A stretch of DNA of 41,673 nt from Nitrospirota bacterium (GTDB taxonomy: Bacteria > Nitrospirota > Thermodesulfovibrionia > Thermodesulfovibrionales > UBA6898), in assembly GCA_003252075.1 (NCBI GenBank), contig QKDO01000127.1, positions 1 to 41,673 of the forward strand, in the 5' to 3' direction. The translations under genes and the position numbers were made by a program. Shown here in pieces: positions 5,104 to 28,218 of this stretch. The notes beneath the pieces were generated by a model. It was not told where the DNA came from and ran no database searches. It was given only the letters and a program-made list of their open reading frames with translations. Position 1 is the stretch's first letter. Each line of letters opens with the position of its first letter.

Positions 5104-5281
5104 CCCTTGTCATGACCTTGATTGTTAAGGCTCGGTAATATCTGAGTGTTTCCTCCTGTCTTACAGTTCCTTGACCTTCGGCCGGATGCCGCCTGCCCGT
5201 CTTTGAGAAGCTCTCTGAGGCGTGGCATACGTGATGCCAAAGGATATTGCGAAACAGGACTTGACCCGCACATACTGAACG

Positions 5282-6076
5282 CTACTGAACCGGTTTTGTG
5301 TGACACCTCTGGCAATCGTTGAGCGGGAAAGCGACCGAAGTGTGGCAGACGCCACAGTACTCACCGCTGGATATCTGCAGCATCGAGAATTTGATCGCGC
5401 CTTTTTTCGTGATCGGAAATATCTCGGGATGGCAGACCTCGCATCCGTTCCAGACGGCGTGCTTCTTATGGGAGAAGAGGACATCGGACATCCACGCAAC
5501 CCCTGATTCTATCGAGACATCCTTATCCATTTTCATGGGAGTCCTTTTAATGGATATGCCTTCAAGAAAATCGGCGGGCTTGATGAGTCCCTTGGTCTCT
5601 GCTTCCTCCCAGTCTATGCTGTTCCCAAGAGCGTTCTTGGGCAATCTGTTAATAAATGTATTGAATTCGTATTCCTTTTTAACTTCCTTTCCAAGAGAGT
5701 GGCACCGTTCACATCTTTCGGCTTCCTCCGGCAAAACGCTGCCGGAACACGAACCAAATATCTTTCTTCCCTCAAAGACCCTGTTTCCGTTATGACAGGA
5801 CCCGCAATGAAAGCCTCTCATGTTCGTAGCAGCACTAATCTTCGTCGCTCCCGCTTCCATCGCAAACCCCACGTCGACGTGGCAAAGCCTGCAGGTAAAC
5901 TTCGCCCGGTGAAGCCAATGGTCGAAGACGACGGGAACAAGCCCTGACCGAGAAGAATAATTGTTAATGACTACCCTGCCGTATCTGTCAGGTGAAACTA
6001 CGGTCATCGCCGACACTGCCCCTGCAGAAAAGAGGAGAATAAAGAAGAACGTAAACAACTGGCTGAAGGGATGCAT
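5282..6076 (-). CDS. Exported six-heme c-type cytochrome (c3/c7-like CxxCH protein)
   Basis: The protein has 264 residues, a signal peptide (hydrophobic 8-22, cut likely after VSA at 23) and six CxxCH haem-binding motifs at about residues 62, 91, 122, 212, 241 and 255. Extra His residues (for example FDHWLH and FSHKKH) are likely distal haem ligands. The two sets of three motifs suggest duplicated c7-like modules. By family knowledge it is a periplasmic or outer-surface electron carrier in anaerobic respiration or metal reduction; its partner is not shown. The start follows GGAG seven bases upstream and lies three bases after the stop of the small exported protein gene, so the two form an operon. 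A wrecked paralogue lies just upstream. Confidence 0.85.
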   Translation of the reverse strand: MHPFSQLFTFFFILLFSAGAVSAMTVVSPDRYGRVVINNYSSRSGLVPVVFDHWLHRAKFTCRLCHVDVGFAMEAGATKISAATNMRGFHCGSCHNGNRVFEGRKIFGSCSGSVLPEEAERCERCHSLGKEVKKEYEFNTFINRLPKNALGNSIDWEEAETKGLIKPADFLEGISIKRTPMKMDKDVSIESGVAWMSDVLFSHKKHAVWNGCEVCHPEIFPITKKGAIKFSMLQISSGEYCGVCHTSVAFPLNDCQRCHTKPVQ

Positions 6077-8790: not shown

Positions 8791-10218
8791 ATGAATGTCC
8801 TTATCATAAACACGAATCGTAACCATTTCCCCATGCCGGTCATCCCGATAGGTGCCTGTATGGTTGCTGAATCTGCCAGTCGCGCAGGACACGCTGTGCA
8901 GTTCATGGACTTGGCATTTTACAAAGACCCTTTGCAGGAGATACTAACCGCGCTAGGGAAAAATAAGCCGGATGTCGTGGGGCTTTCGGTAAGAAATATT
9001 GATAATAACGACATCCAATCCCCGGTTTTTTTTGTTAAAGGCGTTGCTGGTATCGTTGATGTTATCCGTTCGGTGACGTCTGCGCCTATTGTCATGGGGG
9101 GTGCTGCAGTCTCTGTGATGCCAGAGGAACTGCTCCGTTACACGGGCGCGTCCGTGGCGGTGCTCGGCGACGGCGAAGCCGTTTTCCCCCGGCTTCTTGC
9201 GGAATTATCCCGGGGGCGACCGCCCGCTACAGTTCCGGGGGCCGCATGGCTCGAACAGGGTGAATTCAGGGTCAATGCCTGCCTCTCATCGGAAAACGGA
9301 TTCTCCTGTGCCTCGCCTGACTTTTCGCGCTGGATTCATCTGAAGGCATATCTCTCGCGCCTGTCTACAATTCCGGTCCAGACCAAGCTGGGATGTAAGT
9401 TTGCCTGTGTTTACTGCACATACCGAAAAATAGAAGGCAGCAGGTACCGGCTGAGCCATCCCGATGATGCCGCTGAGAACATCTGCAGGCTGGCTTCGCA
9501 CGGTCTCCGCCGTATCGAATTTGTCGATAATGTATTTAACAGTCCCTATGAGCATGCCCTGGAGATCTGCGAAAGTATCGCCCGGATTCAACCGGATGTG
9601 TCGCTCCAGAGTCTTGAATTGAATCCCCTTTTTATTGACGATGCGCTTCTTTCGGGGATGGAACGGGCGGGTTTTTCCGGCATAGGCATTACCGTGGAAA
9701 GCGCATCGGACAGCGTACTGGAAGGGCTGAAAAAAGGGTTTACTGCTGCGCACGTGTATAAGGCTGCAGAAGTGATCCGCCGCCATGCGCTCCCCTGCGT
9801 CTGGATATTTATGATGGGAGGCCCAAACGAAACAGAGGAGACGGTTATGGAAACGATACGGTTTGCGGAGACCGCTATCCGGCCGCAGGATGTTGCGTTT
9901 TTCGGAATCGGTATACGTATATATCCCGGGACGGACCTGGAAGTGATCGCAAGGGAGCAGAGGCTTCTCGCGCTCCCGCAGAGCGGGATGCTTGAGCCGG
10001 TCTTTTATGTTTCCCCGGCCGTTTCCTACGACTGGATGCTGAAACAGGTGCAGACGGCCATGAACGGACACATGAACTTTATGAATTCCGCATCACTGAG
10101 TCTGCCGGTACTTTTGCCTATCCAGCGCGTGGCGTACAAACTGGGGGTGACTTCTCCTCTCTGGAAGTATACCCGTGTCATACGACGGGGGCTGAGATCA
10201 CTCGGTATGGATGCATGA
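8791..10218 (+). CDS. B12-binding-domain radical SAM protein
   Basis: The N-terminal 180 residues form a Rossmann-like cobalamin-binding module (MNVLIINTNR, VVGLSVRN, VMGGAAVSV, VLGDGEAVFP), followed by a radical SAM barrel with Cys202-xxx-Cys206-xx-Cys209 (CKFACVYC) and FMMGGPNETEETV. The DxHxxG lower-ligand motif of classical B12 proteins is absent (DLAFYKD at that place), so cobalamin would bind without a His ligand, as in many B12 radical SAM methylases. The reaction is unknown: methyl transfer or another radical step on a lipid or polyketide is plausible. Its stop overlaps the start of the type III polyketide synthase gene by four bases (ATGA), so the two are translationally coupled and probably act on the same product. 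Confidence 0.85.
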   Translation: MNVLIINTNRNHFPMPVIPIGACMVAESASRAGHAVQFMDLAFYKDPLQEILTALGKNKPDVVGLSVRNIDNNDIQSPVFFVKGVAGIVDVIRSVTSAPIVMGGAAVSVMPEELLRYTGASVAVLGDGEAVFPRLLAELSRGRPPATVPGAAWLEQGEFRVNACLSSENGFSCASPDFSRWIHLKAYLSRLSTIPVQTKLGCKFACVYCTYRKIEGSRYRLSHPDDAAENICRLASHGLRRIEFVDNVFNSPYEHALEICESIARIQPDVSLQSLELNPLFIDDALLSGMERAGFSGIGITVESASDSVLEGLKKGFTAAHVYKAAEVIRRHALPCVWIFMMGGPNETEETVMETIRFAETAIRPQDVAFFGIGIRIYPGTDLEVIAREQRLLALPQSGMLEPVFYVSPAVSYDWMLKQVQTAMNGHMNFMNSASLSLPVLLPIQRVAYKLGVTSPLWKYTRVIRRGLRSLGMDA

Positions 10219-11294
10219 ACATGCGGGACGGCGAAGAGATTGCGGACAATGCGCATATCGCGGCGGTAGCGGTGGCAACCCCCCCTCTCAGCCTTCCGCA
10301 GGCTGAGGCCGGAAGATATTTGACCGAACGCTACTCCCGTGCGCTGACCTCCCGGAATCTCTCACTCATGCAGGACCTCTTCTCCAATACGGCTATTCGC
10401 CGGCGTAGCTTCGCTTTTGAAAGAGCGGATGACCTCTTTACGGAAGACCTCGACGGACGAATCCGGCGGTTTACCCGCTGGGCGGTCGACCTTTCGGCAG
10501 AGGCGATAGAGAAGGCACTGGTGCAGGCCGGAACAGCGTGTAGTGATGTCTCGGGGCTTGTGGTAAACACCTGTACCGGGTACATCTGTCCTGGTATATC
10601 GACCTACCTTATAGAGAGGCTTGGACTCGACCGCGCCGTTCGGGTCTATGATCTTGTGGGGAGCGGGTGCGGGGGAGCGCTTCCGAACCTGGAGGTTGCT
10701 GAATCCCTGCTGGCGCGTACACCGCACCGGGTGGTGGTGAGCGCCTCTGTAGAGGTCTGCACTGCCACGTTTCAGATGGGAAATGATCTGAGCCTGCTTG
10801 TCTCCAACGCCCTCTTCGCTGACGGCGCAGCAGCAGCGGTTCTCTGGCGGGGCAAGCAGGGGCTTCAGCTCATCGCTTCGTCGAGCCGGTATGCGCCTGA
10901 GGACCGGGATGCCATTCGGTATGTACATAAGGACGGTCAACTGCATAATCAGCTCTCAACGAGACTTCCGCATCTTGTCAAGAAAGCGGTGGCGCAGGTA
11001 CTGAGGGACCTTCTCGAACCGCGGGACCTGCGTGTCGCTGATATCAGGCACTGGGCACTGCATACGGGCGGTGAGAAGATCATCAACTGCATCCGTGATG
11101 AGATAGGTTTGTCAGAGGAGCAACTGCTCCCGACACGCGCCATATTGTCCGCCTATGGTAACATGTCTTCGCCCACAGTCTGGTTCGTATTGAACAATAT
11201 TTTGGATAATGGCATGGACCATGGCGATTTCTGCGTCATGGTGGCATTCGGCGCAGGCCTCTCCGCACACGCTGTTCTTCTCAAAAAAGCATAA
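10215..11294 (+). CDS. Type III polyketide synthase (chalcone/stilbene synthase-like)
   Basis: The 359-residue protein carries the type III PKS triad: Cys152 in VGSGCGGALPN, His283 in WALHTGG and Asn316 in GNMSSPTVWFVL. The GNMSSP block is diagnostic for chalcone/stilbene and alkylresorcinol/alkylpyrone synthases and separates it from FabH. By family knowledge it extends an acyl-CoA or acyl-ACP starter with malonyl units and cyclises the chain; the starter cannot be read from the sequence. It overlaps the preceding B12 radical SAM gene by four bases, and a GT39-like glycosyltransferase follows 68 bases later. Together they suggest a small pathway for a modified, perhaps membrane-bound, phenolic lipid or pyrone. 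A second ATG at 10221 is an alternative start. Confidence 0.85.
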   Translation: MNMRDGEEIADNAHIAAVAVATPPLSLPQAEAGRYLTERYSRALTSRNLSLMQDLFSNTAIRRRSFAFERADDLFTEDLDGRIRRFTRWAVDLSAEAIEKALVQAGTACSDVSGLVVNTCTGYICPGISTYLIERLGLDRAVRVYDLVGSGCGGALPNLEVAESLLARTPHRVVVSASVEVCTATFQMGNDLSLLVSNALFADGAAAAVLWRGKQGLQLIASSSRYAPEDRDAIRYVHKDGQLHNQLSTRLPHLVKKAVAQVLRDLLEPRDLRVADIRHWALHTGGEKIINCIRDEIGLSEEQLLPTRAILSAYGNMSSPTVWFVLNNILDNGMDHGDFCVMVAFGAGLSAHAVLLKKA

Positions 11295-13912: not shown

Positions 13913-14656
13913 TCAGCATGGGCAGAGTTTCTGCTCACATAATCCTATCCGGTACGAGACAAGCTGTTCAACCTCCGCAGCGAAAGGGTGCCGGACGATC
14001 TCGGCCGGTGTGCCGGCCTGGATTACGCGCCCTGATGAATAGACGATCATGCGGTCTGCTATCCCGCATGCCTCGTTCAGGTCGTGGGTTATGAGGACTA
14101 CCGGTATGGAGAGTTCCTGCTGGACTTCCTTGACAAGTTGCTGCATCTCTGCACGCACCGGCGCATCGAGCGCCGAGAAGGGTTCGTCGAGGAGCAGCGC
14201 CTTAGGATGCCGCATCAGTGCACGCGCTAAGGCAACGCGCTGCTGCTGTCCTCCCGAAATCTGGGAAGGAAATCTGCCTTCCAGTCCGGAAAGGTGGAAG
14301 CGACGAACCAGCATCCTTGCTTCACCGTCCAGGAGTTTTCTGTTCTTGCCGTGGCCTCCGAAACGGATGTTCTCCATCACGGTCATATGGGGGAAAAGTG
14401 CGAGATCCTGGAACACATAGCCAAGCGAACGCTCCTGCGGAGATAAATCCGTGCCGGAGGGTCGTTCGAACAAGACCCTGTTGTCGAGCGTAATCAGACC
14501 TCTATCAGGCACCATCACTCCGGCGATCATGCGGAAAGTCATGGATTTGCCTGCCCCGGAGAAGCCAAAGAGCACTGCAAGCTCGTTGCCCACTTCCCAG
14601 GAGACATCGAGGGTAAATCCCGGCAGAACCTTTGAGATGGAGACCTGAAGCGTCAT
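13913..14656 (-). CDS. modC: Molybdate ABC transporter ATP-binding protein ModC (short form)
   Basis: The 247-residue ATPase has Walker A GFSGAGKS (about 33-40), Q-loop [14 protein letters not shown], signature SGGQQQR, Walker [13 protein letters not shown] and switch His in LITHDLNEA. The ATG at 14656 overlaps the modB stop by four bases; a longer frame upstream is only a shadow of modB. Classical ModC proteins have about 100 extra C-terminal residues forming a TOBE/MOP molybdate-sensing domain, which is missing here, so transport is probably not trans-inhibited through this subunit. It is the last gene of the nifB-hesA-modABC series. Confidence 0.9.
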
Positions 14657-15327
14657 ATGACGGCCTTTTTTCCGTAGATGTTGGCGATATACAGGAATGC
14701 GCCGGAGATCACGGTAAAGACTGCGACGAGGATATGCGCGCTGCTCCATTCCCCGCTTCCCGCTAGGGTATAAATGGCCAGCGGCATGGTGTCGGTCCTG
14801 CCCGGAATATTACCAGCCAGCATGAGCGTAGCGCCGAACTCACCCATTGCACGGGCGAACGACAACACGGTTCCCGCGATGATCCCTTTCTTCGCCAGAG
14901 GCAGGATCACCTTCACTGCCGTTGTGAAGCGAGAATGGCCGAGCGTGTATGCAGCCACAATAATGTTGCGATCGACCGACTCGATGGCTGCCCGGGCCGT
15001 TTTGATCATGAGGGGAAGGGCTACTACGAAGGATGCGATTACCGCGGCCTGCCAAGTGAACATCACGGACCAACCGGTTGCCTCGAAGACCGGCCTGCCG
15101 AAAAGACCGTTCCTGCCGAAGAGGAGGATGAGATAGTATCCCGTTACCGTGGGCGGCAGCACCAGCGGAAGGGTGAAGAGCATGTCCACTGCCTCTTTGC
15201 CCCGGAAGTCTTTCATGGCGAGCAGGTATGCAACAGCGAGACCTGCGACAAAGACGAGTAAGGTGGCTGCTGAAGCGACCTGCAGCGAAAGCCGCAGAGA
15301 GAACCATGCTGAACCGTCCATGATCAC
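14653..15327 (-). CDS. modB: Molybdate ABC transporter permease ModB
   Basis: The protein has 224 residues with five to six membrane segments and the binding-protein-dependent permease (EAA) loop near AYTLGHSRFTTAVKVILPLAKKGIIAG. The pattern FTLPLVLPPTVTGYYLILLFGRNG is characteristic of ModB/CysT-type permeases. It starts with GTG (15327) overlapping the modA stop by four bases, with an ATG two codons later as an alternative, and overlaps modC by four bases, so modABC are translationally coupled. It moves molybdate across the inner membrane for FeMo-cofactor synthesis. Confidence 0.93.
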   Translation of the reverse strand: MIMDGSAWFSLRLSLQVASAATLLVFVAGLAVAYLLAMKDFRGKEAVDMLFTLPLVLPPTVTGYYLILLFGRNGLFGRPVFEATGWSVMFTWQAAVIASFVVALPLMIKTARAAIESVDRNIIVAAYTLGHSRFTTAVKVILPLAKKGIIAGTVLSFARAMGEFGATLMLAGNIPGRTDTMPLAIYTLAGSGEWSSAHILVAVFTVISGAFLYIANIYGKKAVI

Positions 15328-16088
15328 GGTGTCACCCTGAAACCATACCGGGAAAGTATTTTTTTGCCGTCCTTCGAGGTCACGAGAGCGATAAAATCCC
15401 TCGCCGCTGTCTCAGCCTGGGTGCTCCTGACAACTGCGATAGCATAGACAACGGGGGCATGGACAGATTCCGGAGCTGCGGCCACAACCCGCAGTTCTGC
15501 CCTGCGAAGCGCTGCATCCGTGAGGAAGACGATGCCGGCATCGACCTCTCCGCGTGCAACGTAGTCTGCGACCTGCCGGACATGTTCGCAATAGATCAGT
15601 CTGTCCCTGACCGCTTCCCAAAGGTTGAGGCTCTTAAGCGTTTCGGCTGCATAGGAGCCTGCAGGGACAGTCGCGGGGTTGCCGGTGGCGATACGGCGAA
15701 CCCCGCTATTTTTCAGACTGGTAAACGACGAGATGCTGTCATGACTCTCCATTGCGGTGACCAGCACTATGGCGTTCCCGGCAAAGTTCCTGCGCGTTCC
15801 AGTGACTATGTCACCCTTTTGTTCGAGGCTCTCAATTTCCCTCGGGGATGCGGATGCAAAGACGTCGGTCGGCGCTCCGCTCGCTATTTGGCTCCGGAGC
15901 ACGCCTGAAGCGGCAAAATTGTTAGCGACCTTCATGCCCGGATGCCGGGCTTCAAACAATGTGGCGAACTCCTCGAACGGTGCCTTGAGGCTTGCCGCGG
16001 CAGAGACCGTGAGCTGCCCGGCAGCCGAGACAGCCGGCGCTGCAATTGCGATGACCATGAAAAGAAACCTGAATGCGGCGAGCGACAT
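15324..16088 (-). CDS. modA: Molybdate-binding periplasmic protein ModA
   Basis: The ATG at 16088 is fixed by a strong AGGAGGT seven bases upstream and gives a normal signal peptide ending near VSAAG. The mature protein opens LTVSAAASLKAPFEEFA, the ModA hallmark whose Ser residues bind the oxyanion, and continues with NFAASGVLRSQIASGAPTDVFASAS, GNAIVLV and ARGEVDAGIVF. Family knowledge: it captures molybdate (or tungstate) for ModBC. It starts 16 bases after the hesA-like gene in a run of co-directional genes headed by nifB, so its supply of Mo is probably induced with nitrogen fixation. Confidence 0.93.
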   Translation of the reverse strand: MSLAAFRFLFMVIAIAAPAVSAAGQLTVSAAASLKAPFEEFATLFEARHPGMKVANNFAASGVLRSQIASGAPTDVFASASPREIESLEQKGDIVTGTRRNFAGNAIVLVTAMESHDSISSFTSLKNSGVRRIATGNPATVPAGSYAAETLKSLNLWEAVRDRLIYCEHVRQVADYVARGEVDAGIVFLTDAALRRAELRVVAAAPESVHAPVVYAIAVVRSTQAETAARDFIALVTSKDGKKILSRYGFRVTP

Positions 16089-16104
16089 AATTGGCACCTC
16101 CTGT

Positions 16105-16902
16105 TCAGTTCTTTCTGCCGGCCGGGATGCCGCCGTCGGCCACACGCGATCTGTGCATTTTCCCGCCACAGACCGGGCAGTCGGGATCGAAACGGATCTT
16201 TACGTTCCGGAAAACCATATCATAGGCGTTGAAGACAAGCATTCTTTCGCCGAGCGGTCTTCCGTAACCAGTCAATACCTTGATGGCCTCCAGCGCCATC
16301 ATGCAGCCGAGCATACCGGACACCGCCCCGAAGACCGGAAACCCGAGTTCTTCCCATGCAGGATCATGCTCGGGAAATACGCAGTCGAGACAGGGTGTGG
16401 CACCAGGCATGACAGTGAAAAGGTACCCGTCCATGCCGTTCATGGCGGCCTCGACCATGGGTATCTCCTGCCTTATGCATGCCTCGTTGAGGATGCGGCG
16501 CTCGGGGAAGTTCGGACGCGCCGAGAGTGCTATGTCTGTGCGGTCGAGCAGCATGCCGGTATTTCCCGACGTTATCCTTTCGTTGAATATCTCTACTGCC
16601 ACATCAGGGTTCAACATCCTGATGCGGTCTTTCGCCTGTTCGACCCTCGGTTTTCCGATGTGGTCGTCGCGCATGAGCGTCTGACGGTTCATGTTCGACA
16701 GGGTAAGGTCGCCTGCGTGGGCGAGGCGCAATCCGCCGATGCCGGCCACAGCGAGATAGGTGGCTGCGGCGCCGCCGAGTCCGCCCACCCCGGCAATTAC
16801 TGCAGTAGATGCCCGCAACCGCTTCTGCTGCTGCAGGCCGTATCCTTCATGCATCAGCTGTCGCCGATAGCGTTCACGCTCCCGGTCGCTTAGTGTGATC
16901 AT
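16105..16902 (-). CDS. ThiF/MoeB/HesA-family E1-like adenylyltransferase
   Basis: The 265-residue protein has the ATP-binding loop GVGGLGG (38-44), the conserved SNMNRQTLM block, and two CxxC pairs (Cys171/Cys174 and Cys242/Cys245) for structural zinc. SARPNFPERRILN takes the place of the usual DNFxxR motif. Family members adenylate the C-terminus of small sulfur-carrier proteins (MoaD, ThiS). HesA-like versions are common in nif clusters and are thought to help metal or sulfur delivery for cofactor synthesis, though the exact role is unsettled. It lies between nifB and modA. No small ubiquitin-like partner is present nearby. Confidence 0.85.
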   Translation of the reverse strand: MITLSDRERERYRRQLMHEGYGLQQQKRLRASTAVIAGVGGLGGAAATYLAVAGIGGLRLAHAGDLTLSNMNRQTLMRDDHIGKPRVEQAKDRIRMLNPDVAVEIFNERITSGNTGMLLDRTDIALSARPNFPERRILNEACIRQEIPMVEAAMNGMDGYLFTVMPGATPCLDCVFPEHDPAWEELGFPVFGAVSGMLGCMMALEAIKVLTGYGRPLGERMLVFNAYDMVFRNVKIRFDPDCPVCGGKMHRSRVADGGIPAGRKN

Positions 16903-16946: not shown

Positions 16947-17837
16947 TCAGAGCATTTCACAGTATTCTTCCCCGATCCGCGCGTTCAGCACTTCCAGTTC
17001 CATGTCCCTGTCCTCCCCGAGCGTGCCGTAGGCATCGGCCCGGCACTGGCGGCAGTGGGTCATCTGTTCGATATGGGTCGCGCACCCGCCGCGCAGCTTG
17101 GCCACCGCCTCGGTCGACGGCCGCTGCAGTCCTGCAAATTCAGCCTGCGGGATGAGGGGGATGATGTTCATGATGTCGGCCCCTTTTGTTCCGGCCGACC
17201 ATGCAATGAGCGGAATCTCCGCGTCATTGACCCCGGGGATGAAGACCGTGTTCACTTTCACCATGAACCCTGCATCGATAGCGTTGGTTAGTCCCCGCTG
17301 CTGGTTGAGGACCAGTTGCGTGGCCGCCTCCCTTCCCGTGAGCTTCCTGCCGCGGTATACGACCCAGGCATAGATCCGCTCGGCCAGGGCTGGCGTGATC
17401 GCATTGATGGTGATCGTTATGCTCCTGACGCCCACCTGCATGAGGTCAGCTATGCGGTCCGGCAGGCAGAGACCATTGGTCGATACGCAGAGCGTAAGAT
17501 CAGGAAACTCCCGGTGGATAGCCGCCATGGTCTCGAAGGTCGCTTCATTGGCCAGCGGGTCTCCGGGGCCGGCTATGCCTACGACCGTGAGTTTGTCATT
17601 CCTGCCGGTCAACGCCCGGACCCGCTCAAGCGCTTCGCCGGGCGAAAGGACGCGGCTGGTAATGCCGGGCCGCGATTCGTTCGCGCAGTCGAACTTCCGG
17701 ATGCAGTAGCGGCACTGGATATTGCACGCCGGCGCTACCGGGATATGCACGCGGCCGAAACGGTGGTGGGCCTCCTTCGAAAAACAGGGATGGGAAAGCT
17801 TGATGTCCCGTGTGGTCTGCTGTCTCGCCGTAATCAT
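16947..17837 (-). CDS. nifB: NifB, radical SAM FeMo-cofactor core synthase (short form)
   Basis: The ATG at 17837 follows AGGAGGT by five bases and gives 296 residues. The N-terminus is typical of NifB: LSHPCFSKEAHHRFGRVH, then the radical SAM cysteines Cys38, Cys42 and Cys45 (CNIQCRYC), Cys51 in RKFDC and NESRPG. The C-terminal CATHIEQMTHCRQCRADA supplies further cluster ligands. It joins two 4Fe-4S units with a carbide to make NifB-co, the precursor handed to NifEN. It ends without the NifX-like domain found in many proteobacterial NifB proteins, as in short NifB of archaea and anaerobes. A sigma-54 promoter lies just upstream, and the hesA-like and modABC genes follow on the same strand. 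Confidence 0.96.
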   Translation of the reverse strand: MITARQQTTRDIKLSHPCFSKEAHHRFGRVHIPVAPACNIQCRYCIRKFDCANESRPGITSRVLSPGEALERVRALTGRNDKLTVVGIAGPGDPLANEATFETMAAIHREFPDLTLCVSTNGLCLPDRIADLMQVGVRSITITINAITPALAERIYAWVVYRGRKLTGREAATQLVLNQQRGLTNAIDAGFMVKVNTVFIPGVNDAEIPLIAWSAGTKGADIMNIIPLIPQAEFAGLQRPSTEAVAKLRGGCATHIEQMTHCRQCRADAYGTLGEDRDMELEVLNARIGEEYCEML

Positions 17838-17861
17838 GATGCACCTCCTGCCCATAATACA

Positions 17862-17962: not shown

Positions 17963-19210
17963 TTATTCGGGCAGAACGGTGAACAGTGCGGCCGCAATGT
18001 CAGGATATCGTGCGACGAAACGCAGTTCATCATCGGTCAGCGGCTTCTGGGTATGGAGGTTTGCATACTGGACAAGCTGCAGTATGGTCCGTGCCTCGGA
18101 ATCGTCATGAAAATGGATGCCGAGTTTATCAGAGACATGACGAAAGCCCTTGATGCCGCCGTATTCACCGGTGGTGATCACCCTTCCGGTCTCGATCAGT
18201 TCGGGCTTTCCCCTGCCGACGTCCCCGACGTCGTACAGTTCATAGCTCCTGCGGTCCTTGAGTGCGCCGTCTGCGTGTATGCCGGACTCATGAGCGAATG
18301 CGTTGGCGCCCACACCGGGCTGGTGCAGGGGGATCGGAATATTGAAGGCATAGGAAGCATAGCGCGCTATTTTCCATGCGACGCTGAGGTCGACCCGTTC
18401 GTCCAGCGTAACCCTCTGTCTGAGGGCAGGTGAGAATTTCAGGGCGAGGATCGTGGAGACCAGGTCACAGTTTCCTGCCCGCTCGCCATAGCCGTTTACC
18501 GTCGTGTTGATGTAGCAGCCGGCACCGCTGTCTGCTGCGCCCTGTGCGCCGGCGATCGAGACGGCCTCGGCCATGCCGAGGTCGTTGTGGCAGTGCATCT
18601 CTATTGGCAGGCCGTTGTCCCGCGCAAGCGTCCTGATACGATCGCAAATCGTGAGGGGGTCCTCGGTTCCCAGCGTGTCACAGTAGCGGAACCGGTCTGC
18701 CCCGGCTTCCTTGCCGGCAGCGATGAACTCCCTGAGCCGTCCGAGGTCCGTACGCGATGCGTCTTCGGCATTGATACCGACGGACAATGCGCCGCGGTCA
18801 CGGGCGAGACCGACCGCCTTCTTCATCAGGCCGAGCTGAGACTCCCAGGTCTTTGTGCCGCGGAACTTGGCCTTCAGCATCACCTCGGAGGTGGACATCG
18901 AGAGGTTCAGATGGCGGAGTTCCGGGCAGTTGCTGAACGTACGATCGACGTCCTCCGGTATCGCGCGGCACCATCCCTGCAGCCGTAGGCGCTTGATCGC
19001 GCCGGATGCGGCGAGCCTGAGGTTCGCATTAATGTAATTTACTTCATGCCGGAGCGTGGGGAACCCGATCTCGCTCTGGAAGATGCCCATCTCGTCGAGA
19101 TAGAGGTTGAGCATCGTCTTGGCGAGCTTCGGTAGGAGGATGCGAGAGGTCTGCACCCCGTCCCTGTTGGTCACGTCTATGAGATATACCTTGTTCCTGA
19201 CCTTTTTCAT
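17963..19210 (-). CDS. nifV: Homocitrate synthase NifV
   Basis: The start at 19210 yields 415 residues beginning MKKVRNKVYLIDVTNRDGVQ, where the metal and substrate residues of the HMGL/isopropylmalate-synthase TIM barrel occur (D-x-T-x-R-D-G). Further barrel motifs are EMHCHNDLGMA (metal-binding His pair), NTTVNGYGERAGN and ESGIHADG. It condenses acetyl-CoA with 2-oxoglutarate to homocitrate, the organic ligand of FeMo-co; the nif context favours this over isopropylmalate synthase. It has its own sigma-54 promoter and an exact NifA-type site, so it is a separate transcription unit between the main nif operon and nifB. The ribosome site is weak. Confidence 0.92.
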   Translation of the reverse strand: MKKVRNKVYLIDVTNRDGVQTSRILLPKLAKTMLNLYLDEMGIFQSEIGFPTLRHEVNYINANLRLAASGAIKRLRLQGWCRAIPEDVDRTFSNCPELRHLNLSMSTSEVMLKAKFRGTKTWESQLGLMKKAVGLARDRGALSVGINAEDASRTDLGRLREFIAAGKEAGADRFRYCDTLGTEDPLTICDRIRTLARDNGLPIEMHCHNDLGMAEAVSIAGAQGAADSGAGCYINTTVNGYGERAGNCDLVSTILALKFSPALRQRVTLDERVDLSVAWKIARYASYAFNIPIPLHQPGVGANAFAHESGIHADGALKDRRSYELYDVGDVGRGKPELIETGRVITTGEYGGIKGFRHVSDKLGIHFHDDSEARTILQLVQYANLHTQKPLTDDELRFVARYPDIAAALFTVLPE

Positions 19211-19240
19211 TGATATTTCTGACCGTCCATCAGTTTTGAA

Positions 19241-19256
19241 TGCAAAAGCATTGCCA
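19241..19256 (-). promoter_or_regulatory. Sigma-54 promoter of nifV
   Basis: The minus strand reads TGGCAATGCTTTTGCA, keeping the invariant GG and GC and the ten bases between them, with two mismatches in the less conserved positions of TGGCACG-N4-TTGCA. The predicted transcription start is about 19230, roughly 20 bases before the ATG. Confidence 0.8.
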
Positions 19257-19317
19257 AGGTCTAAACCGGGACGTATGCGGCGGCAGCACGTCCTGACTGT
19301 ACGGAAATGAAGCACAA

Positions 19318-19582: not shown

Positions 19583-19858
19583 CTAAAGCTCTATATGCGT
19601 ATGGCAGCGCTTGGTGCAGGTGCGGGAGCAGGCTTCGCAGCCGATGCAGTTGTCCCGGTTCGCCACGGACATGACCTTGTTGCCCATGTCGTCGCCGTAT
19701 TCGTCTTCTCCCTCAAAGGGTTTTTCGATGAGTTCCAAGACTTCCCTGCTGCATACCTTGTAGCACCGGCCGCAGCCGATGCACTTGTTCACATCGATCG
19801 CCTCTATAAAGCGCGGGGTCCATTCCTGTCCCCCGCGTGTCATTCCCGTTGTCGCCAT
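19583..19858 (-). CDS. fdxB: Nif-specific 2[4Fe-4S] ferredoxin (FdxB/ferredoxin III type)
   Basis: The ATG at 19858 follows AAGGAGG and gives 91 residues. The protein has two cluster motifs, CIGCGRCYKVC and CIGCEACSRTC, separated by an insertion containing EGEDEYGDD, the arrangement of nif-associated ferredoxin III. The N-terminus (GQEWTPRFIEAID) also matches that group. By family knowledge it carries electrons to nitrogenase or to cofactor assembly (NifB). It is the last gene of the nifHDK-EN-X-I1-I2 unit and is preceded by a 10-bp stem-loop. Confidence 0.9.
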   Translation of the reverse strand: MATTGMTRGGQEWTPRFIEAIDVNKCIGCGRCYKVCSREVLELIEKPFEGEDEYGDDMGNKVMSVANRDNCIGCEACSRTCTKRCHTHIEL

Positions 19859-19894
19859 AATTTCCTCCTTCATAGCAGATAGAGAGAGGAAGAG

Positions 19895-19959: not shown

Positions 19960-20379
19960 CTAAACGATCGCTTCTCCGCCGGTCTCTGACGTCCGCACCC
20001 GGATCGCCTCGTCCACCGGACTGACGAATATCTTGCCGTCCCCGGTCTTGCCGGTCCGGTTCACTTTTACGATCGACTTGACGATCTTCGTGACCAGGTC
20101 GTCCGGCACCACCATGGTGAGCATCCTCTTCGGCACGAAGAGCGCCACTTTCGGAAGCGTGTGCTCCAGGGCATAGGTCGAGGGTGTGGGCGTCAGTTTC
20201 ACGGAGGTGCAGAACTTCTCGGGCAGCTCCGGGTCGAGGTCGTTGTCGCAGACCATGCCCTTCTGCCTGCCGCGGCCGTCCACGCTCTGGATTGAGACCG
20301 AGGGATAACCCAGTTCCTCCAGCACCTTCTTGGTTTCGGGCAGTTTGTCTCTTCGTATGATAGCGGTGATCTCTTTCAT
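19960..20379 (-). CDS. nifI2: NifI2, PII-family nitrogenase regulator
   Basis: The 139-residue protein starts MKEITAIIRRDKLPETKKVLEEL, with a PII-like beta-alpha-beta fold, a long T-loop region (GRGRQKGMVCDNDLDPELPEKF) and the ligand-binding block TGKTGDGKIFVSPVDEAIRVRT. The Tyr of the GlnB/GlnK uridylylation site is absent, as in NifI proteins. With NifI1 it forms a complex that binds NifDK and blocks it when ammonium or low 2-oxoglutarate signals nitrogen sufficiency (known from methanogens). It follows nifI1 by 31 bases. Placement downstream of nifX differs from the usual position between nifH and nifD. Confidence 0.92.
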   Translation of the reverse strand: MKEITAIIRRDKLPETKKVLEELGYPSVSIQSVDGRGRQKGMVCDNDLDPELPEKFCTSVKLTPTPSTYALEHTLPKVALFVPKRMLTMVVPDDLVTKIVKSIVKVNRTGKTGDGKIFVSPVDEAIRVRTSETGGEAIV

Positions 20380-20410
20380 GTCATCTCCTTTCCGGCTGCA
20401 GGGCAGTACC

Positions 20411-20728
20411 TTACAGCACTGCCTCGCCGGTCCTTACGGTATAGGTCGTCTCGACCGGGCTGATGAATATCTTGCCGTCGCCCACGAAGCCTGTCCTGGA
20501 CTTCTCCATCATCAGGTCGGTCACCTTTTTCACGTCCTTGTCGTTGATGACCATCATGATGAGGGTCTTGGGAAGTTCGTCATAATGTACCGGCCCGACC
20601 TGGAGCCCCTTCTGCTTGCCGCGTCCGAAGACCGGCATCTTCGTCAGTGATGGGAAGCCCGCCCCCTCTAATGCCTGAACTACCTCCTGCTCCTTTTCCG
20701 GTCTGATAAATGCTCGTATCATCTTCAT
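20411..20728 (-). CDS. nifI1: NifI1, PII-family nitrogenase regulator
   Basis: The 105-residue PII-like protein begins MKMIRAFIRPEKEQEVVQAL, with FGRGKQKGLQVG in the T-loop position (shorter than in NifI2) and the TGFVGDGKIFISPVETTYTVRTGE block near the C-terminus. It has GAGGAGGAAGC as a ribosome site. It is the partner of NifI2 in fast post-translational shut-off of nitrogenase. Both genes are expressed in the structural operon, so regulator and target are made together. Confidence 0.92.
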   Translation of the reverse strand: MKMIRAFIRPEKEQEVVQALEGAGFPSLTKMPVFGRGKQKGLQVGPVHYDELPKTLIMMVINDKDVKKVTDLMMEKSRTGFVGDGKIFISPVETTYTVRTGEAVL

Positions 20729-20811: not shown

Positions 20812-21207
20812 TTAATCACTTGCCAGCGCCTTCTTCAGCCAGGGCGGCGGCGAATTCTTTATGGTCTCAGAAAGTTTCCGCATGGATTCCTCGATGCTTA
20901 CCGGCTCTTTCACCTTGACCGGCATGATACCCTTCCGGGCAAGACGGGCTGCGGACGGTCCGCCGATCTCTGTCAGATAGATGATCCTGCAGTCGGAGAT
21001 CTTCTCGACCTTGTCTTCGACCCGCTCGTCATGGATCTTGCCCATTCCCTTTGTCTCTTCTATTGCCCTGTCCCTTCCCTCAGAAAACCTCCGGGTCTCC
21101 AGAAGGGTATACCCGTTGGCGTCAAGCTCGTAGATGGCAAACATGCCGGCTCTCCCGAAATGTTCGTTTACACTGATGCCGTCCGTTGTTGCAAAAGCTA
21201 CTTTCAT
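20812..21207 (-). CDS. nifX: NifX, FeMo-cofactor precursor carrier
   Basis: The 131-residue protein opens MKVAFATTDGISVNEHFGRAGMFAIYEL, the NifX/NafY cofactor-binding fold signature including the HFG motif, and continues to ISDCRIIYLTEIGGPSAARLARKGIMPVKV, also typical. It is thought to bind NifB-co or the VK-cluster and shuttle it between NifB and NifEN. Its ATG overlaps the nifEN stop by four bases (ATGA), so expression is coupled to its partner. Confidence 0.93.
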   Translation of the reverse strand: MKVAFATTDGISVNEHFGRAGMFAIYELDANGYTLLETRRFSEGRDRAIEETKGMGKIHDERVEDKVEKISDCRIIYLTEIGGPSAARLARKGIMPVKVKEPVSIEESMRKLSETIKNSPPPWLKKALASD

Positions 21208-23810
21208 CGATGCACCTCCCTTGCCAAAAGATTTGCCATATCATGGATCATGGCCGTGGTCCCCCGGTAGCCTATGGTGATACGCTGAGGGTACCCAATA
21301 GTCCTGAATACCGGAAATCCCATTTCATACAGCAGCATGCCGTGACGGCCGGCAATGTCGAAGGCGTGCGAATTTGCCATAAGCAGATCGCATTCTGCGT
21401 CGACATCCATCAGTCCGCCGCGAACAATCCTTTCCGCAGCTATAGCACTGGCTGCCCCTGTCTCATGGGGAATCACCGCGCATCTGATCGAGGCGCCGGT
21501 CTCCGCAGCCCACCGGCCTGTCTGGATCGCATGGCTTTCGTCCAGTGCCAGACAGATTGACTTTTCGGAGGTGAAGAAGTGGACGTCCCGCAGGGAGTCC
21601 ACGAGTATCCGGCGCTGATGCTGGTGGGTCTCGGGTATCTCTTTGCCGCTTATAAGCGAAAGCATTTTCAGGAAGCTGTCCGTGTCCTGCAGTCCTGCGA
21701 CAGATTGGAGGACGCTGTACTCGACCCCGAAGCGGTCCTTTATGATTTTTGCAGCTCCCTCCATGCATGCGCCGATCGCGAAGGTGAAGGCTGCCCTGCC
21801 CATGGCGCTGATGGCTGACACGGACGCCCCGCCTTCCGCAAGCGCCGAGATCCCCTGTCTGCTGCCGTCGAGGGCCGACATGTCCGGCACGATGATGCAC
21901 CTGAGTCCGAACGACCCGATGATCTCCTTCAATTCAGTCATATCGGCCGGAGTCAGATGAGGGCCGGCAAGGATGTTCAGCAAAGCCGGGTCCGTACGTT
22001 CCGGTGCCGCGACGATCGACAGCAGTGCCTCGATTGCACCTGCATAGCCCTGTTCAAGCCCCCCTGCGTAGTCCAACGTTGCGACTGGCAGCATCGAGAT
22101 GCGCGGATGACGCTCCGACAGCACATGCGCGGTCGAGAGGATATCATCTCCCTTCACCGCGGTCAGGCCGGTCGATATGAGGCCTATTACATCGGGGCAG
22201 TTCTTATCTGCGAGAACGTTGACGGTCTTCATAAGACCTTCTTCGCTTCCCATGATCACGTCCTCGGCAAAAAGCTTGCTGCTGACCATGGCTATCGGCT
22301 CACGGAAGTGTTTGGTCAGAAGTACCTTGCCCAGGAAATTGCAGCCCTGTGCCCCGTGGATGACCGGGACCGCCCTGTGCACACCCTGGAATGCCATGGC
22401 AGCACCGAGTGCAGGCGAATGCTTCAGCGGATTGATGAGAACATCCTGTTTGACTGAAGGCGAAGGGCTGACAGCTGATTTCTTCATCCCTTTGCCCCTT
22501 GCCCTTTGCCCGTTGGCCTGACCGTAGAACCGTAAGCCGTTGCTGATCTGCCGGGCAAGATTGACGAGTCCGTCATAGCCGGCATAGGCATGATGCCGTT
22601 CCTGATTGACATCGACAAAGGGATATCCCTCTTTCACCGCAAGGTACTGGTTTCTTCCCCCTGCGACGAGGATATCGGCTCCGCGGTCCTTGAGAAGGCG
22701 CAGCAGATTCTTCGGTGTGACATCCTCCACAAGAGGGGCGCCGGGACCGAATATCTCCTTCATTTTCTCCTCATCTTCAACGGTGCTCTTCTTTGTGCCA
22801 ACCGCGACGACCTCAATACCGAGATCCTGCAACGCCGAGATGAACGACCAGCTCTTTACCCCGCCGGTATAGAGCACTGCCTTCTTCCCTCTAAGATGTT
22901 CGTATGGTCTGAGTTTGTCATACAGCTTCTGCTCTTCTACTGCAATGGCCTCTTCGATTTTGTCCTGAAGCCCTTTGTCTTTTGCCCCAAGCCCTTCGCC
23001 TATCTTTCTGAGCGCCCTGGCCATTTCGGTCTTTCCGAAGAAAGAGACCTCACAGTAGGGAATGCCATACCTTTGTTCCATTCCCTTTGCTATATTGATC
23101 AGGGCCCTGCCGCATACGACAACATTCAGCTTTGCTTCATGCGCCCAGGTTATCTCCTCAAACGTCGCATTTCCGGTGACGCGGGACAGGATGGTGACTC
23201 CTGCCCGCTGCAGTACAGGCTCGATGAACCAGAGGTCACCTGCGATGTTATATTCGCCGATCAGATTGATGTCGTTATCATTCTTATTCGGAGCTGCGCC
23301 TGTTCCGATGACCTGCTCAAGCAGCACGTCACCGGCACTTCGGTTGCCGAGGTTCTTCGGGCCTACAAAGCCCGGAGCATTTACCGGGATGACCCTTATG
23401 TGCAGTTCAGCAGCGGCCCTTCTGCAGACGGCCTCGATATCTTCTCCGATAAGGCCGCTGATGCAGGTTGCATATACAAATATCGCCTTTGGCTTCACCG
23501 AATCGGCTGTCTTCAGGATTGCCCGATACAGCTTTTCTTCCGATCCGTAGACGATATCCAGCTCATTCATGTCTGTGGTGAAGCCCATGGTGTGGAGGTC
23601 GCCCTTTTCCGACTGCGTGCCTCTGCCCTCCCAGGAATTACCGCAGCAGGCGATCGGTCCATGCACCAGATGGGCCGTGTCAGCAATGGGCTGGAGCACG
23701 ATCATTGCGCCGTCAAAAGCGCAGGACTCTCCGCCGCGTGAGCGGCAGACCTTGTCGCTTCTGTCCGGTCCGCAACCGTGCTCTGTCAATCTGTCCGCAT
23801 TGGTGATCAT
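21204..23810 (-). CDS. nifEN: NifE-NifN fusion, FeMo-cofactor assembly scaffold
   Basis: One uninterrupted frame of 868 residues contains complete NifE and NifN. The NifE half (1-430) has cluster cysteines at 30 (ESCAFDGA), 55/56 (HGPIACCGNSW) and 116 (ATCISGLIGEDIEAV) and ends as NifE does (HHAYAGYDGLVNLAR). The NifN half starts near 458 (INPLKHSPALGAAMAFQG) with Cys490 in HGAQGCNF and GLISTGLTAVKGDD. A linker of about 28 residues (430-457) is rich in Gly, Arg, Lys and Ser and is coded by G/A-rich near-repeats. The protein would form the alpha2beta2-like scaffold that matures NifB-co into FeMo-co. Separate nifE and nifN are usual; fused forms are known in a few V-nitrogenase systems (VnfEN of Anabaena variabilis). 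GAGAGG precedes the ATG. Confidence 0.95.
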   Translation of the reverse strand: MITNADRLTEHGCGPDRSDKVCRSRGGESCAFDGAMIVLQPIADTAHLVHGPIACCGNSWEGRGTQSEKGDLHTMGFTTDMNELDIVYGSEEKLYRAILKTADSVKPKAIFVYATCISGLIGEDIEAVCRRAAAELHIRVIPVNAPGFVGPKNLGNRSAGDVLLEQVIGTGAAPNKNDNDINLIGEYNIAGDLWFIEPVLQRAGVTILSRVTGNATFEEITWAHEAKLNVVVCGRALINIAKGMEQRYGIPYCEVSFFGKTEMARALRKIGEGLGAKDKGLQDKIEEAIAVEEQKLYDKLRPYEHLRGKKAVLYTGGVKSWSFISALQDLGIEVVAVGTKKSTVEDEEKMKEIFGPGAPLVEDVTPKNLLRLLKDRGADILVAGGRNQYLAVKEGYPFVDVNQERHHAYAGYDGLVNLARQISNGLRFYGQANGQRARGKGMKKSAVSPSPSVKQDVLINPLKHSPALGAAMAFQGVHRAVPVIHGAQGCNFLGKVLLTKHFREPIAMVSSKLFAEDVIMGSEEGLMKTVNVLADKNCPDVIGLISTGLTAVKGDDILSTAHVLSERHPRISMLPVATLDYAGGLEQGYAGAIEALLSIVAAPERTDPALLNILAGPHLTPADMTELKEIIGSFGLRCIIVPDMSALDGSRQGISALAEGGASVSAISAMGRAAFTFAIGACMEGAAKIIKDRFGVEYSVLQSVAGLQDTDSFLKMLSLISGKEIPETHQHQRRILVDSLRDVHFFTSEKSICLALDESHAIQTGRWAAETGASIRCAVIPHETGAASAIAAERIVRGGLMDVDAECDLLMANSHAFDIAGRHGMLLYEMGFPVFRTIGYPQRITIGYRGTTAMIHDMANLLAREVHR

Positions 23811-23853: not shown

Positions 23854-25362
23854 CTACCGGATTACATCAAAACTTGTCGTATCGACGGTCTTCCTGTCCA
23901 TCTCGTCGAGCACGGTATTCACCAGCATGGTCACCAGGTTGAGGGCTCCCTGATACCCGACGATCGGCTGGCGGTGCAGGTGATGCCGGTCAAAGAGCGG
24001 GAAGCCGATCCTGATCAGCGGGGTCCCGGTGTCGCGCATCAGGAACTTCGCATAGGAGTTGCCGATGAGAAGATCCACCGGCTCAGCGAACAGCAGTGAC
24101 CGCAGATGCCACATGTCCCTGTTGATATATACCCTGCCATTGACGCCAAAGGGGCTCGATGCCAGCAGCTCCTTGGCATCTGCCTCGAAATGCTTGTCGC
24201 CGTTGGTGCAGACAACATGCACCGGTTCTCCACCCATTTCCATGATGAGACTCATCATGCCGAGCAATTGATCGGGATCGCCAACGAGCGCGAACCGTTT
24301 GCCGTGCACGTAGGGGTGGGAGTCCACCATCGCGTCCACTACTCTGCCGCGCTCCGCCTCTATCTCCGCCGGGATCGGCTTGCCGGTAAGCTTGCTCAGC
24401 TCCTCAAGGAACCTGTCTGTGTTCCCGATGCCGATCGGCGAAAGCGTAAGAGTCTTCTGCCCCCAATCCTTCTGGATATACTCCATGGTCTTTACGGTCG
24501 AGTATTTCTGCAAAGCGACGGTTGCCAGTGCGTTTACCGAGTCCATGGCATCTGGGAGGGGCGTGCCGCCCGGGTAGAGCTTGTATTCGCCGGTATTCGG
24601 CGAGTCAAAGGTCTCGCTCACATCCGCAAGCAGCGTGTATTCGATGCCCATCAACGCCATAAGCCGTTTGATCTCATGGTAGTCACCCGTATAGGTATCG
24701 AACCCCGGAATAATATTGACCTTTCCGTTCGGCTCGCCACGTTTTCCTTCCGACAGCGCCTTCAGGATGCCTTTCAGCATATTGTCATAGCCCACGATAT
24801 GGGATCCGACAAAGCTTGGAGTATGCGCAAACGGCACTGGCATGTCCTGCGGGATGACGCCTTTTTCACGCGCGGTCTTGATATATGCGTTGAGATCGTC
24901 TCCAATGACCTCTGCCATACAGGTAGTCGAGACCGTGATCATCTTCGGCTTATACAAGGCATACGTATTCTCCAAGCCTTCGAGCATGTTGTTCAGCCCG
25001 CCGAATACTGCGGCATCTTCGGTCATGGACGTCGAGATCGCGGCAAAGGGCTCCTTGAAGTGCCTGCTCAGGTGGCTGCGGAAGTATGCAACGCAGCCCT
25101 GGGCACCCTGCACGAATGGCATGGAGCCGTCAAATCCCGAAGCGCAGAAGACTGCGCCTAAGGGCTGGCAGGCCTTTGCCGGGTTGATCTTGATGTTCTC
25201 CCGCTTGAAGTTAAGTTCCTTATACTCCTCGGTCTTGGTCCATTCCGCGATCTCCCTGACCTTTTCTTCGGGCCACGGTTTCTCGAACTCTTTCTTCCGC
25301 GCGAATTGCGCCTGGTAATCCGGCTGACTGAACAGTTCATTATGGTCTTTGATCTTTATCAT
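23854..25362 (-). CDS. nifK: NifK, nitrogenase MoFe protein beta chain
   Basis: The ATG at 25362 overlaps the nifD stop by four bases and follows GGAGGA, giving 502 residues. P-cluster ligands are visible in [33 protein letters not shown] and [13 protein letters not shown], and the conserved [14 protein letters not shown] follows. The NifD-NifK pair forms the alpha2beta2 MoFe protein that holds the P-cluster and FeMo-co. The absence of any delta-subunit gene and of Anf/Vnf-specific features supports a Mo enzyme. The long N-terminal extension of proteobacterial NifK is reduced. Confidence 0.97.
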
Positions 25363-26786
25363 TTCTTCCTCCGAATCAGGTCCCATGTGGGACTGTTGAC
25401 GGTCATATCCATATCCCGTGCAAAGACCGGGAACCCGTCGAACCCATGGTATGGACCGGAGTAGTCCCAGGAATGCATCTGGCGGAACGGAACGCCGAGT
25501 TTGTGGTAAGAGTACTTCTCCTTGATGCCCGAACCGACCATGTCCGGCTTCAGCCTGCGGGTGAACTCTTCCAGCTCATACAGGGTCGCGTCATCCATGA
25601 TCACCGCTCCTTCCTTCAGCTCCGGATAGGTACGTTTGTAGTCGTCGCCGTGGCCGAACTCGTAACCCGAGGCAACTACTTCCATGCCCAGGTCTTCATA
25701 GGCCCCGATGGTGTGGCGCGGGCGAAGACCGCCGACATAGAGCATCACTTTCTTGCCCTCGAGCCTGGGCCGGTACTGCTCCACAATCCCGTCCATTACG
25801 GGCGTATACTTCGCGATTACAGCCTCTGCATTTTTCTGGATCTTCTCGTCGAAACGGGCTGCAATCTTCCTGATGCTGTCATAGGTCTTCGTGGGTCCGA
25901 AGAAGTTGAACTCCATCCAGGGGATGCCGTATTCCTCTTCCATATGCCGGCAGATATAGTTCATCGACCGGTAGCAGTGGATCAGGTTCAGCTTTGCCTT
26001 GGTCGCGATAGCAATCTCGTTGATCGATGCATCGCCCGTGTACTGGGAGATCACGCGGAGGCCCATCTCTTCAAGGATCTTCCGCGATGCCCAGGCGTCA
26101 CCGCCTATGTTGTAGTCACCGATCAGGGCAACGTCATAGGGAGTCAAGGTGTCAAGTTCCCCTTTGCCAAGCACATAGTCCTTGATCGTATCGTTGGCAA
26201 TATGATGGCCAAGGGACTGGCTCACGCCGCGGAATCCTTCGCATCTGACCGGAACAATCGGGAACTTGAATTCCTTTTCCACCCGCTTCGATACCGCCTC
26301 GATATCATCGCCGATGAGGCCTACCGGGCATTCCGACAGTATGCCGATGCCCTTGGCAAGCGGGAAGAGATCCTTCAGCTCATGGAGTGCTGCGTCAAGG
26401 CCCTTGTCGCCGCCGTATACGATATTCTTCTCCTGAAAGTCTGTGGTGATATGCATGGTGCCGAAGGTATCAATGCCGGTCTGGCCGTTATAGTAGTTCC
26501 GGCGCGACCACCAGCTGTACTGGCCGCAGCCTATGGGGCCGTGGCTGACGGTGATCTGGTCCTTCACCGGTCCCCAGACTACGCCCTTTGCACCTGCATA
26601 GGCGCAGCCCCTGACTGTCATGACACCGGGACGCGACTTGATGTTCGACTTCACCTGGCAGGTGCTGCATTGTCCCGTGGGGTCGTTCGCCGCAAGGTGT
26701 TTCGCCCGGTCCTTCTTCGATTTTTCAGGATAGGCGTCCAGGACTTCCTCTATCATCTTTTGTGTATCTGTAATTGTCGTGCTCAT
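25359..26786 (-). CDS. nifD: NifD, nitrogenase MoFe protein alpha chain
   Basis: The 475 residues carry the P-cluster cysteines in [27 protein letters not shown] and [15 protein letters not shown], the FeMo-co cysteine in [11 protein letters not shown] and the FeMo-co histidine in [18 protein letters not shown]. The substrate-pocket block [19 protein letters not shown] (Gln and His near the cofactor) is intact. These residues identify a catalytically competent molybdenum nitrogenase. It lies 95 bases after nifH, with a possible stem-loop between them, and overlaps nifK by four bases. Confidence 0.98.

Positions 26787-26881: not shown

Positions 26882-28218
<1,337 letters not shown>

Follow-up and report, generated by a model that had tools for sequence, protein, structure and literature searches.

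Does a reading frame that joins NifE to NifN within a molybdenum nitrogenase cluster encode a genuine single-chain scaffold, and how did the two genes come to be joined? The question was raised by a 41,673-nucleotide stretch of a Nitrospirota genome (hereafter the window), in which one frame runs through both subunits. Judged from its sequence, the product is very probably a single-chain NifEN, the scaffold on which a Nitrospirota diazotroph akin to Thermodesulfovibrionia assembles its FeMo-cofactor. Within this bacterial group nifE and nifN are normally fused, and the arrangement is already on record.

The fused gene and its Mo-nif neighborhood

The frame opens with an ATG at 23810 and closes with a stop at 21204-21206 on the minus strand. 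All 868 codons are uninterrupted, including those of the linker at 22446-22530, as the initial annotation had described. The plus strand over 21204-23810 is broken by stops, and the open frame is confined to the minus strand. The encoded chain is ordered NifE, a linker of about 30 residues, and NifN. The features of the cluster, with the evidence for each, are:

26882..27880, minus strand: nifH (TIGR01287; within the listed frame, the NifH model aligns from residue 54 onward)
25359..26786, minus strand: nifD, Mo type (TIGR01282, 787 bits; scores for VnfD and AnfD far short of their cut-offs)
23854..25386, minus strand: nifK (TIGR01286)
21204..23810, minus strand: nifEN fusion gene, 868 aa (translation; TIGR01283 and TIGR01285 both above cut-off)
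22530..23810, minus strand: NifE half, residues 1-427 (TIGR01283; ligand alignment; tail comparison)
22446..22530, minus strand: linker, residues 427-455 (low pLDDT; heptamer run; hypervariable among 56 relatives)
21204..22445, minus strand: NifN half, residues 456-868, with C490 (TIGR01285; C490 invariant)
20812..21207, minus strand: nifX, with a 4-base overlap at the nifEN stop (TIGR02663 above cut-off)
20411..20728, minus strand: P-II/NifI-like regulator (P-II models)
19960..20379, minus strand: second P-II/NifI-like regulator (P-II models)
19583..19873, minus strand: nif-specific ferredoxin III (TIGR02936 above cut-off)
17963..19315, minus strand: homocitrate synthase-like, nifV-like (TIGR02660, 249 bits, below the cut-off of 463)
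16947..17855, minus strand: nifB, radical SAM domain only, without the NifX domain (TIGR01290, positions 5-285 of 441)

Profile searches assigned each half to its own family. The NifE half scored 582 bits against TIGR01283 (cut-off 505; residues 9-425), and the NifN half scored 398 bits against TIGR01285 (cut-off 327; residues 456-863). Pfam recognized two nitrogenase component 1 domains in the fused protein. The bifunctional NifEN model NF011047 (PRK14477) matched across the whole length, at residues 27-865, with 936 bits against a cut-off of 1229. The protein is thus a fused NifEN by architecture, yet this model would not name it.

Cluster ligands, whose roles in NifEN have been described (PMC13031127), were located by pairwise alignment to A. 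vinelandii NifE with positions counted by hand. C30, C55, and C116 correspond to the O-cluster ligands C37, C62, and C124, while C22, C233, and Q403 correspond to the L-cluster ligands C25, C250, and Q419. The fused protein therefore carries the O-cluster and L-cluster residues sought in a NifEN scaffold. In the NifN half, C490 of the HGAQGC motif was taken as the putative counterpart of NifN C44. An alignment of 24 fused proteins revealed all seven of these residues to be invariant and C13 (C15 in A. vinelandii) to be nearly so, bearing out the earlier statement that the cluster cysteines of each half are intact.

The same annotation had described both scaffold subunits as complete. Both family models are indeed matched above cut-off, but for NifE the wording is slightly too strong. 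Comparison with separate NifE proteins showed that the C-terminal SPIW.QVR.PAPWE tail is absent from the Nitrospirota fusions, the window included. This tail ends most of the separate NifE proteins compared, as well as the fused NifEN of Pseudanabaena. The NifE half is not strictly complete because this conserved tail is missing.

Gene order on the minus strand is nifH-D-K-[EN]-X-nifI-nifI. Mo-type models score far higher for NifD and NifK than the V and Fe-only models do, and profile matches of the neighbors agree with the reported placement of the fused gene between nifK and nifX of a Mo-nif operon. A vanadium-type (VnfEN) identity was rejected on the same neighbors, which fall far short of the VnfD and VnfK cut-offs. 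Both P-II (NifI-like) genes, at 19960-20728, follow nifX rather than lying between nifH and nifD. Beside the nif genes, an ABC transporter set (binding protein, permease, and ATPase; 13913-16169) probably serves molybdate uptake and is accompanied by a ThiF/HesA-like gene at 16105-16902. On the plus strand, a gene for a B12-binding radical SAM protein adjoins one for a chalcone/stilbene synthase-like ketosynthase (8791-11294).

Linker variability and origin of the fusion

Among 56 fused proteins, the linker, measured between the counterparts of anchor residues 424 and 461, ranged from 24 to 52 residues (median 33.5). Mean column conservation fell to 0.30 within it, compared with 0.87 and 0.86 in its flanks. 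AlphaFold assigned pLDDT values below 50 to residues 432-459, which are predicted to be disordered.

Several linkers also carry repeats. That of the window contains a run of GGGCAAR heptamers at 22492-22518 (repeat region 22485-22518), with three matches against 0.01 expected from shuffled sequence. This pattern occurs a few more times in the genome, while the reversed control gave no occurrence. A palindromic repeat (TCATTGCGAGGCAC...) lies inside the linkers of three relatives (G039, G037, and G200; loci L030, L028, and L095). Genome G039 holds about 40 partial or full copies of it, and seven of nine other copies sampled there fall outside any open frame of at least 100 aa. In a further relative, G153 (locus L078, G153:C50), the linker bears a perfect 28-nt tandem duplication at approximately 5237-5292 of the reverse complement. 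The NifN half is out of frame with this duplication, and nifEN is thereby split.

Repeats and variability together are consistent with a former spacer that is held in frame under little other constraint. The route to fusion was probably loss of the nifE stop codon, which would have turned the spacer into coding sequence. We consider it rather likely that the linker is coding DNA of intergenic origin, almost unconstrained, and acts in frame as a landing site for genomic repeats, that changes in these repeats can split the gene again, and that the fusion arose independently of others.

The distribution of the fusion bears on this last point. The query found matches in 75 of the 198 genomes in our sample of the Nitrospirota phylum. 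Among genomes with nif genes, almost all those from the window's order and class have fused nifEN, as do some additional families, while members of other Nitrospirota families (f17, f21, f23, f25, and f28) have separate nifE and nifN. In a quick 72-row tree, on which change counts alone cannot separate gain from loss, the Nitrospirota fusions formed one fully supported group (54 fused and one split), and the Pseudanabaena fused NifEN nested among split cyanobacterial genes.

If all NifEN fusions instead descended from one ancient fusion, the separate genes would be later splits. Splitting does occur, as the frameshifting duplication in G153 illustrates, and counts of change leave room for such a history. 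However, trees in which all fused rows were forced into one clade were rejected (p-AU 0.0036; 0.0026 without locus L091; 25 rows), which favors independent fusions. The NifE tail agrees with this result, since the SPIW..PAPWE sequence is kept in the cyanobacterial fusion and gone from the Nitrospirota one. A single origin would also need several parallel splits, and we regard it as unlikely. The Nitrospirota fusion thus appears, from sequence comparison, to be independent of the cyanobacterial fusion. It probably had a single origin, no later than the base of the Nitrospirota nif lineage.

Two kinds of unusual locus were also encountered. L091 (G134:C29) represents a third type of fused NifEN, with a long branch and with a NifN half that begins much as in 9i0g. 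Its genome, assigned to Nitrospirota, is 74% complete, and the locus may reflect transfer or contamination. In L080/L018 (G008), a fused gene is interrupted by a stop codon within its NifN half, reflecting either a broken gene or a sequence error.

Structure and integrity of the single chain

AlphaFold modeling of the single chain (mean pLDDT 78.9; pTM 0.60) predicted two folded halves joined by an unstructured linker. The best structural match of the fused protein was G. metallireducens NifEN (9i0g). In our reading, the NifE and NifN halves would fold as the usual NifD/NifK paralogues, with the permanent [4Fe-4S] O-cluster held at the interface between them. Two fused chains would pair to form the equivalent of the (EN)2 tetramer, an oligomer expected from the family. 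By the same family analogy, NifB would deliver the L-cluster (NifB-co), Mo and homocitrate would be inserted on the NifE half with NifH, and the finished M-cluster would pass to NifDK. The linker would act as a flexible tether, placed where the C-terminal tail of NifE has been lost. As both halves belong to one chain, their stoichiometry would be equal, with the tether fixing a 1:1 supply. Docking of NifB-co, NifX, or NifH may also be altered, as the initial annotation proposed.

A disordered linker might also be cleaved, or NifN might be started within it, such that one gene yields two proteins and the working subunits are separate. The window offers a candidate start, an ATG at residue 441 preceded by the purine-rich stretch GGGGCAAAGGGATG. 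This ATG is gone in the closest relative (94%), and among the 56 relatives only 20 have an in-frame ATG in the variable part, at differing positions. A conserved internal NifN start was accordingly rejected. As the deposited GmNifEN structure is moreover one chain of 919 aa, we consider two separate products very unlikely and favor the single-chain scaffold.

That the fusion is an artefact of assembly or sequencing, with the nifE stop removed by an indel, is scarcely conceivable. The window genome is in draft form, at 146 contigs, and the heptamer run in the linker is of a kind prone to miscounting. However, a search of related genomes, proposed earlier as a check, recovered the same uninterrupted fusion in a congeneric genome at 94% identity. 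It also recovered fused genes at more than 50 other loci in independently assembled genomes, where the linkers differ in length and sequence. This recurrence in independent relatives rules the artefact out. No separate nifE or nifN was found in a search of the window's genome, where the only other matches were NifD and NifK.

Relation to known NifEN systems

The initial annotation regarded NifE-NifN fusions as known for a few V-nitrogenase systems (VnfEN) and their presence in a Mo-nif operon as unusual. In the literature covered here, the first view finds no support and the second is contradicted. Fused nifE and nifN were reported for 29 assemblies from Cyanobacteria and Nitrospira (PMC8399215), and the fusion was described for A. 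variabilis, in its Mo nif2 cluster, and for Chroococcidiopsis (PMC4284476). For V-nitrogenase genes, the latter review lists a vnfDG fusion, with vnfE and vnfN separate. Both naturally fused proteins, from A. variabilis and G. metallireducens, function in A. vinelandii, with relatively low activity (PMC10865832). Within Nitrospirota, Thermodesulfovibrio TK110 (2025) has a nifE-nifN fusion in the order nifHDKENXIIB, and its nitrogenase activity was measured (PMC12501866). Given these published cases, cryo-EM structures of fused GmNifEN in the PDB (9I0G and 9I0H), and the fused-NifEN family curated by NCBI (NF011047), the protein in the window is not new in kind.

Our additions to the known fusion are modest: an origin apparently independent of cyanobacteria, the absence of the NifE tail, and a hypervariable, repeat-bearing linker. 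In biological terms, an apparently convergent fusion of a known pair is a minor addition. A single-chain NifEN is useful to groups transferring nitrogenase into yeast and plants because it requires fewer genes and fixes stoichiometry. For them, the more than 50 natural linkers, varied in both length and sequence, already provide evidence that nearly any tether will do.

Among known systems, Thermodesulfovibrio sp. TK110, from a related Nitrospirota lineage with measured diazotrophy, shares the fusion and the core gene order. TK110 is a thermophile, however, and the window has an extra ferredoxin gene and a nifV-like gene before nifB. G. metallireducens NifEN is likewise a single chain and the best match in both sequence and fold, although it is longer (919 aa) and about 39% identical in the fold alignment. 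The cyanobacterial fused proteins (A. variabilis nif2 and Pseudanabaena) also lie in Mo-nif clusters, with nifX adjoining in Pseudanabaena. They form a separate branch at about 42% identity, and the Pseudanabaena protein retains the NifE tail. Separate NifE and NifN, as in Azotobacter vinelandii (PDB 3PDI and 9ONK), share the cluster ligands and both domains with the fused protein, but they are encoded by two genes, and most of the separate NifE relatives compared carry a C-terminal tail that the NifE half in the window lacks.
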